Source: an uncultured Thiothrix sp.
Lineage (GTDB): Bacteria > Pseudomonadota > Gammaproteobacteria > Poriferisulfidales > GCA-002705445
Length of the DNA: 64,000 nucleotides
Direction: 5' to 3'
Assembly: GCA_902595225.1 (NCBI GenBank)
Contig: CACJPG010000003.1
Coordinates: 33,827 to 97,826, forward strand
This document shows positions 52,017 to 54,514 of the stretch, one piece after another. Every line of letters begins with the position of its first letter. Within the stretch, counting starts at the first letter, position 1. The position numbers and the translations under genes are program-made. Under the pieces are notes generated by a model. The model saw nothing but the letters and a program-made list of their open reading frames with translations, did no database searches and was not told where the DNA came from.

Positions 52017-52856
52017 TTATAGACTTACTTTAAGTTTAGCAATAGTCTCAGTTTCAATTTGTCTTACTCTTTCTCTAGATATCTCATACTTTTTGGATAG
52101 ATCTTCTAAAGTAAGCTTTGTCTCAGCTAACCACCTACTTTTAATAATGTCTTTACTTCTCTCATCTAGATTCTCTAAAACCGTATATAGCTTTTCACTA
52201 AGCAAATTCTTTTCATTATTTTCTAGAAGTTGATCAGGTTGAAGTTCTTTACTTTCTAAGTAGATAGAGGGAGTAACTTTATCATCATCCTCTTTTTCAT
52301 CAATAGCAACATCATGATTATGCAATCTTTTTTCCATTTCCATAACATCTTTAATAGGCACATTTAAATCATTCGCAATAGATTTTGCTTCTTCGGAAGT
52401 TAAGGAGGCTAATGAGTCCTTTTTTGATCTTAAATTAAAAAATAATTTTCTTTGTGTTTTTGTTGTGGCTACCTTTACAATTTTCCAGTTTTTAATCACA
52501 AATTCATGAATTTCAGATTTTATCCAGTAAACAGCAAATGTGATAAGTTTCAGATTCTTCTCTGGATTATATTTTTTGACAGCTTTCATTAGGCCAACAT
52601 TTCCTTCTTGAATAAGATCATTTAAATTTAATCCATATCCAGAATAGCTTTTAGCAATGTAAACAACATACCTTAAATTGTGTAAAATTAATTTTTTAGC
52701 GGATTCAAGGTCATTTGAGTTTTGTAGCTTACGTCCAAGCTCAACTTCCTCGTCAGTCGTAAGAACTGGTATCGCCATCACATGATTTATGTATGTATCG
52801 ATACTTCCAGTGCAAGATGGAAGAGATGAATATTTGTAATCAATTTCTTTTGTCAT
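52017..52856 (-). CDS. rpoH: RNA polymerase sigma factor RpoH (sigma32)
   Basis: VYIAKSYSGYGLNLNDLIQEGNVGLMKAVKKYNPEKNLKLITFAVYWIKSEIHEFVIKNWKIVKVATTKTQRKLFFNLR. Confidence 0.96.
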   Translation of the reverse strand: MTKEIDYKYSSLPSCTGSIDTYINHVMAIPVLTTDEEVELGRKLQNSNDLESAKKLILHNLRYVVYIAKSYSGYGLNLNDLIQEGNVGLMKAVKKYNPEKNLKLITFAVYWIKSEIHEFVIKNWKIVKVATTKTQRKLFFNLRSKKDSLASLTSEEAKSIANDLNVPIKDVMEMEKRLHNHDVAIDEKEDDDKVTPSIYLESKELQPDQLLENNEKNLLSEKLYTVLENLDERSKDIIKSRWLAETKLTLEDLSKKYEISRERVRQIETETIAKLKVSL

Positions 52857-52880
52857 ACAATTTGATAATTTGTTAATTAA

Positions 52881-52907
52881 TTAGCACTCATTATACAAGA
52901 GTGCTAA
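52881..52907. promoter_or_regulatory. CIRCE element (HrcA operator) upstream of rpoH
   Basis: TTAGCACTC-ATTATACAA-GAGTGCTAA: perfect match to consensus TTAGCACTC-N9-GAGTGCTAA. Confidence 0.95.
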
Positions 52908-52917
52908 TTATAAGCAA
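52890..52917 (-). promoter_or_regulatory. Putative sigma70-like rpoH promoter (TTGCTT-N16-TATAAT) overlapping CIRCE
   Basis: Reverse strand: TTGCTT (52917-52912), 16-nt spacer, TATAAT (52895-52890) inside the CIRCE spacer. Confidence 0.65.
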
Positions 52918-53188
52918 CACGTTGAATTTTATACAATAAAAACAATAACTTATATATTATAAAATTATAATATTTTAACCTAGATAATTATAATGTCTTA
53001 ACAATAGTTTTAAATATTTTTCTATCTTAAATATCTTTAATAACTTAAATTCCCACTTTAATTTCTCAATTAAAACAAAATAAAGAGTGTATAGCTTAAT
53101 TAGTAATTCTATTGTGCTATTATAAGATTTAATAAATTTTTAAAAAAATTGAAGGTATAATTTCGGATCAATCAACAGAAAGAGCATT

Positions 53189-54514
53189 ATGAGATATTTT
53201 TTTACAATAAATATTTTCGTATTTTTTTTGTTTTTAGTAATCCCATATTCGAGGGCGGAAGTTATGGAACAAACTTTAGAAAATGGTCTGCAAGTAATTC
53301 TTAAAAAAGATAAAAGAGCACCAGTTGTCACAAGCCACATATGGTATAAAATCGGTTCTGCAGATGAATATAGTGGTAAGACTGGGCTATCACATGCACT
53401 TGAGCACATGATGTTTAAAGGTACAAAAAAATATCCTGGTGGAATTTTTTCCCAAACAATCGCGAAGCTTGGTGGCAAAGAAAACGCCTTCACAAGTAAG
53501 GACTATACTGCATACTATCAAACTCTTCCTTCTCAATATTTAGAACATGCGCTTAAGTTTGAATCAGATAGAATGAATAACCTGGTTATTAAAAAAGAAG
53601 ACTTTCTTAAAGAGATAGAGGTAATAAAAGAGGAAAGAAGATTAAGAACTGACGACCAGCCAGAGGGAGTTGCATATGAGCAGTTATATGCAAGTGCATA
53701 TAATAATAGTTCGTACCATGACCCTATTATTGGCTGGATGGAAGATTTAAATGCAATGAGCGAGCAAGATATTTCTGATTGGTATGATAATTGGTATGCT
53801 CCTAATAATGCTACAGTAGTTATTGTTGGAGATATTGATTTTAAAGAAACACTACAACTTATAAAAAAATATTACGGGCCGAAAAAACGAGTAAAGATAC
53901 AAGATAGAACAATTAGAGATGAGCCCGTGCAATATGGCGCAAAAGAAATTTCTATACAAATAAAAGATAAACCATCGTATATTATTATGGGTTATAAAGT
54001 ACCAAGTCTAAATTCAAAAGATATTGATACATCAGAGTGTTACGCATTATCGGTACTGTCTGGCATACTTAGTAGTGGACAGAATTCAAGACTTCAAAAA
54101 ATTCTTGTTAGAGATAAAAAAGTAGCAAGCTATGCGGATTCTGGTTACTCTATGTTTTCCCGAAATGACCCATTATTTTTAATTGATATCAATCCTCTTG
54201 TTGGTGAAGATACTGAAAAAATACAAAAAGAGCTTGATGCAATTATTGTAGACCTGCAGACAAATCTTGTACATAAGAAAGAATTGGACAGAATTAAAGC
54301 ACAGGTTTTAGCATCAGAGGTGTATCAAAGAGACTCGATTGATTACCAAGCAAGAATTCTAGGAATGATTAAAACTTCAATAGGAGACATTAGTCTTATT
54401 GATAAATATACCGAAAATATAAATAAAGTTACAGCATCACAGGTTAGATCCGTTGCAAAGAAGTATTTAGTTTCAAATTTAAAGACAATTGTTACTGTCA
54501 ATGATGAAAAATAA
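53189..54514 (+). CDS. M16 family zinc metallopeptidase (catalytic type)
   Basis: GLSHALEHMMFKGTKKYPGG (HxxEH motif), signal peptide. Confidence 0.93.
   Translation: MRYFFTINIFVFFLFLVIPYSRAEVMEQTLENGLQVILKKDKRAPVVTSHIWYKIGSADEYSGKTGLSHALEHMMFKGTKKYPGGIFSQTIAKLGGKENAFTSKDYTAYYQTLPSQYLEHALKFESDRMNNLVIKKEDFLKEIEVIKEERRLRTDDQPEGVAYEQLYASAYNNSSYHDPIIGWMEDLNAMSEQDISDWYDNWYAPNNATVVIVGDIDFKETLQLIKKYYGPKKRVKIQDRTIRDEPVQYGAKEISIQIKDKPSYIIMGYKVPSLNSKDIDTSECYALSVLSGILSSGQNSRLQKILVRDKKVASYADSGYSMFSRNDPLFLIDINPLVGEDTEKIQKELDAIIVDLQTNLVHKKELDRIKAQVLASEVYQRDSIDYQARILGMIKTSIGDISLIDKYTENINKVTASQVRSVAKKYLVSNLKTIVTVNDEK

Follow-up and report, generated by a model that had tools for sequence, protein, structure and literature searches.

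A predicted HrcA operator over the rpoH promoter of an uncultured Thiothrix sp. and related gammaproteobacteria

The 64,000-nucleotide stretch of DNA analysed here (the window) carries a gene for sigma-32, the master switch of the heat-shock response. This gene, rpoH, is very probably controlled in turn by another heat-shock regulator, the HrcA repressor. A perfect CIRCE element overlaps the promoter of this gene, and we consider it highly likely that it is an operator through which HrcA would repress rpoH alongside groESL, with sigma-32 in turn driving dnaK. HrcA binding, the repression, its signal and the order of the cascade we infer from sites, gene content, conservation and co-occurrence. 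The relevant features of the window are as follows.

52017..52856, minus strand: rpoH, encoding sigma-32 (279 aa), above the TIGR02392 cut-off, with sigma-70 regions 1.2, 2 and 4
52857..52880, minus strand: interval separating CIRCE from the rpoH start codon, most of a short predicted 5′ leader (start site predicted from the -10 hexamer), with no obvious Shine-Dalgarno sequence
52881..52907, no strand assigned: CIRCE operator TTAGCACTC-N9-GAGTGCTAA, matching at 18 of 18 arm positions and kept in the genus
52890..52895, minus strand: -10 hexamer TATAAT, inside the CIRCE spacer, invariant in 10 of 10 readable family genomes
52912..52917, minus strand: -35 hexamer TTGCTT, exactly 16 nt from the -10, its TTG conserved in the genus
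53189..54514, plus strand: divergent gene from the open reading frame listing, probably encoding an M16-type peptidase to judge from its sequence, starting 281 bp from CIRCE

The encoded protein scores 338.3 bits against the RpoH equivalog TIGR02392 (cut-off, 323.1), in agreement with the identity that the first-pass annotation gave to the gene downstream of the operator, and its QRKLFFNLR region is intact. That annotation had also reported a perfect 18-position match to the HrcA operator, with TATAAT in its spacer and TTGCTT 16 nt upstream, and both readings hold at the sequence level. The perfect CIRCE is the only match in the window, has no counterpart in 100 dinucleotide shuffles and, at the base composition of the window, would arise by chance about 8e-6 times per genome. 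On the minus strand, the order is TTGCTT-ATAATTAGCACTCTTG-TATAAT-GAGTGCTAA, followed by 24 bp and the ATG of rpoH.

Taken alone, the rpoH promoter is unconvincing. Its -35 hexamer is weak (four of six consensus positions), a generic sigma-70 scan of the region returned 6 consensus-like sites versus 4.5 in shuffles, and the TTGCTT/TATAAT pair does not pass that scan. What makes the promoter credible is that none of the 10 readable family genomes, that of the window among them, has lost the spacer TATAAT or the TTG 16 nt upstream; its case is one of conservation and not of consensus. A second sigma-70 promoter candidate, with a TATAAT at the left edge of CIRCE, was rejected as it is not conserved in the genus. 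Given that the -10 hexamer occupies CIRCE positions 13–18, transcription should start near the end of the right arm, and CIRCE should therefore act as a DNA operator that is hardly present in the mRNA.

Conservation upstream of rpoH, which had been proposed as a check, extends through the genus and far beyond it. The rpoH CIRCE is present in all eight readable relatives of the genus (RpoH 73–79% identical to that of the window) and in one genome of a sister genus (64%). Across the 10 family loci, window included, it is perfect in 9 and has a single mismatch in 1, and the element and its hexamers stand out from otherwise divergent AT-rich DNA; the -35 hexamer reads TTGATA, TTGAAA or TTGCTT within the genus. 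Each genus relative with a readable rpoH has two CIRCE sites. In two further genomes of the genus, rpoH only appears to be lost: in the 98%-complete G008, 12 kb of N (a gap or masking; C4:252000-264000) cover the cyoE–rpoH–M16 neighbourhood, and in G010 the contig begins within the neighbouring gene, so that neither genome bears on rpoH loss. Another assembly (G011; contamination, 6%) has two near-identical rpoH copies, each with a CIRCE (C10:12067 and C14:3722), reflecting either a duplication or mixed strains.

The genome that contains the window (1.01 Mb, 84% complete) is that of a small marine bacterium, and its nearest named records are marine metagenome or single-cell assemblies labelled uncultured Thiothrix sp. 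(AH-287-I11) or Gammaproteobacteria bacterium, with RpoH proteins 72–79% identical. The hrcA gene and the further CIRCE site that the first-pass annotation suggested looking for are both there. One full-length hrcA adjoins grpE and dnaK, and its product has both HrcA domains (C-terminal PF01628, 212 bits; winged-helix PF03444, at its 21-bit cut-off). At up to three mismatches the genome contains exactly two CIRCE sites, upstream of rpoH and groES; the groES site is perfect, lies 33 bp upstream of the start codon and is preceded by TTGACA-N16-TACAAT. A CIRCE at hrcA–grpE–dnaK was rejected, as none occurs in that region (L003) within five mismatches. Instead, dnaK has a sigma-32-like promoter, CTTGAAA-N13-CCCAATAT, and similar CTTGAA...TCCnCATATA motifs recur upstream of dnaK across the genus. 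This layout points to an HrcA regulon of two operons, groESL and rpoH, and places dnaK at the next level down.

A CIRCE at rpoH is not peculiar to the organism of the window, as might have been supposed, but is common in gammaproteobacteria that carry hrcA. Among 50 genomes of the class with a readable rpoH, and counting CIRCE at up to two mismatches, the site occurs in 28 of 30 genomes with hrcA versus 3 of 20 without (p = 1.6e-8). A second set of 44 genomes, reached through named records, gave 25 of 25 versus 2 of 19 (p = 2.5e-10). These per-genome p values overstate the association because the genomes are related; collapsing the class set to families leaves 19 of 21 versus 3 of 15 (p = 2.6e-5). 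The Legionella species tested have neither hrcA nor the rpoH CIRCE. Two genomes have hrcA and no rpoH CIRCE (G032 and G045). The site was found with no detected hrcA in G024 (62% complete), G052 (86%) and G035 (97%), and likewise in the metagenome-assembled genomes L043 and L046. These are mostly incomplete assemblies, an explanation that does not extend to G035 (L021), where a one-mismatch rpoH CIRCE may reflect recent loss of hrcA, a missed gene or another binding protein. Cycloclasticus genomes with hrcA have an rpoH CIRCE at one or two mismatches; in two Cycloclasticus symbionts of sponge and mussel (L068 and L085), hrcA is absent and the site, about 72 bp upstream, has four, possibly a snapshot of operator decay after loss of the repressor. 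One locus (L025, from G029) has a tandem CIRCE pair before rpoH, one perfect and one with a single mismatch, with starts 32 bp apart.

In most other families, the element has a different partner. Upstream of the rpoH CIRCE in Woeseiaceae, Thiotrichaceae, Cycloclasticus and Methylococcaceae stands GGAACTT, and the left CIRCE arm plus the first spacer bases read TCTAA, which together form a candidate sigma-E promoter, GGAACTT-N16-TCTAA. The register is tight: in 42 of 49 named loci from outside the genus of the window, GAAC starts 16 or 15 nt before CIRCE, compared with 7 occurrences at the other 64 offsets together. We searched 369 genomes drawn evenly from the class for the composite GAACY-N10-TTRGCACTCYNA-N6-GAGTGCTAA and found it in 68, once per genome, and all 30 of the loci inspected lie just upstream of an RpoH open reading frame; a reversed control pattern occurs in none of the 369. 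A CIRCE with TATAAT in its spacer is found in two of the 369, both from the genus of the window. The usual arrangement at rpoH is a CIRCE over a predicted sigma-E promoter, and the sigma-70 version is the exception.

The exception coincides with a missing sigma factor. RpoE (TIGR02939) has no match in the genome of the window (84% complete) and none above the cut-off in any genome of the family, several of which are 92–98% complete; one weak ECF match in G008 is the sole match of that search in the family. The motif GAAC(T/C) about 16 nt before a TC(T/C)NA overlapping CIRCE is likewise absent from the window and its genus. More broadly, GAAC at -15 of the rpoH CIRCE occurs at 10 of 16 sites from genomes with RpoE versus 0 of 15 from genomes without (p = 2.5e-4), an association that at the family level has p = 0.035 on strict counting and 0.003 on a looser counting chosen after looking. 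Three RpoE-bearing genomes (G028, G038 and G048) have an rpoH CIRCE with no visible sigma-E promoter. The simplest reading is that, after this lineage lost RpoE, a promoter of the sigma-70 type shifted by about 5 bp came to serve rpoH under the retained operator, a direction of change that we infer from these distributions.

We propose that, at ordinary temperature, an HrcA dimer on CIRCE would cover the -10 hexamer and most of the spacer between it and the -35, keeping RNA polymerase off rpoH as it would hold down groESL. In other bacteria, HrcA activity is controlled by its dependence on GroEL or by its own thermolability. If HrcA here also loses activity under heat or protein-folding stress, as we assume from those systems, groESL and rpoH would be derepressed together, and sigma-32 would go on to activate dnaK, along with further genes for chaperones and proteases, at promoters of its own class. 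Where the operator lies over a putative sigma-E promoter, as in most gammaproteobacteria with HrcA, rpoH would answer to both envelope stress and HrcA release; in the genus of the window, which is missing RpoE, a housekeeping-type promoter would sit in a shifted register under the unchanged operator. The layered heat-shock cascade suggested by the first-pass annotation is in keeping with a dnaK that has a sigma-32-like promoter and no CIRCE. On balance, we favour the broader view that, across HrcA-bearing gammaproteobacteria, rpoH transcription integrates two inputs: HrcA, a sensor of folding in the cytosol, would control access to a sigma-E promoter within a rigid composite in which one CIRCE arm doubles as part of the sigma-E -10. 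On this view, the promoter class was replaced under a fixed operator after a streamlined marine lineage lost RpoE, and the E. coli circuit would be short of a layer that disappeared together with hrcA.

As a palindrome located between two divergent genes, CIRCE could in principle act mainly on the M16 peptidase gene, its position at rpoH being incidental. It lies 281 bp from the peptidase start versus 24 bp from that of rpoH, however, and encloses the rpoH -10; in other families it stays near rpoH, in register with a sigma-E promoter that reads into rpoH. CIRCE control of the peptidase gene is not thought likely, and a site serving mainly that gene is scarcely credible. The operator might otherwise be a relic, kept by inertia or as a promoter after HrcA ceased to control rpoH, and part of its sequence would indeed be held by promoter function, with the -10 inside it. 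Yet 9 of 10 family loci show no mismatch in either arm despite RpoH divergence to 64–79% identity, arm positions outside the hexamers are also kept, and where hrcA has been lost the rpoH site is decayed or absent, all of which makes a relic very improbable.

A further possibility, which differs from the HrcA-operator explanation in weight only and is compatible with it, is that HrcA binds and merely tunes a sigma-32 level that is set mainly post-transcriptionally, by an RNA thermosensor or by DnaK/FtsH. In other proteobacteria, RpoH is regulated at the levels of translation and protein stability, and the intact QRKLFFNLR region fits such control. Folding of the rpoH leader is unremarkable (z = -1.52), with the start region little paired in the centroid structure. 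We regard this as possible, though the less likely account. The same folding result leaves the contrast that had been drawn with a translational thermosensor unestablished: it is uninformative, and translational control could therefore coexist with HrcA.

The proteobacterial heat-shock response is taught from E. coli, without HrcA. As the rpoH CIRCE recurs in many gammaproteobacteria that keep HrcA, the textbook circuit would be missing a layer present in many relatives. Should HrcA commonly target rpoH, negative control by HrcA/CIRCE and positive control by sigma-32 would be parts of a single hierarchy in many gammaproteobacteria, and envelope stress would feed in through sigma-E as a third signal at the same 45 bp. 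In the genus of the window, the repressor site would have stayed in place while the class of promoter beneath it changed, a clear example that could be tested in relatives available in culture. Our searches of the open literature turned up no account of the CIRCE/sigma-E composite or of the promoter replacement, and nothing on HrcA together with sigma-E at rpoH; HrcA goes unmentioned in a 2016 survey of the regulons of proteobacteria. Permina and Gelfand (2003), covering beta, gamma and epsilon groups, may list gammaproteobacterial cases of CIRCE at rpoH.

None of the three components, HrcA/CIRCE, sigma-32 and sigma-E control of rpoH, is new in itself. With the HrcA/CIRCE regulon of Bacillus, Caulobacter and others (groESL and hrcA–grpE–dnaK), the genome of the window shares the operator consensus, an encoded HrcA and a groESL operon whose CIRCE adjoins a sigma-70-like promoter; it differs in having the sigma-32 gene as a target and in an hrcA–grpE–dnaK locus of its own without CIRCE. 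The P3 promoter of E. coli rpoH is the sigma-E promoter through which RpoE was first found (PMC8103513). Its TGAACTT-N16-TCTGA (NC_000913) has the same N16 spacing as the GGAACTT-N16-TCTAA of the relatives, in which CIRCE overlaps the sigma-E promoter, whereas E. coli, on our control list, is without HrcA; the genus of the window, unlike E. coli P3, has neither the sigma-E motif nor RpoE. In the delta-proteobacterium Geobacter sulfurreducens, a CIRCE at rpoH was predicted in 2004 (Table 8, position -51; PMC545781), as a single-species prediction without promoter architecture. Like the genome of the window, G. sulfurreducens combines a perfect CIRCE upstream of rpoH with hrcA in a proteobacterium, and CIRCE at rpoH is therefore not new in kind.
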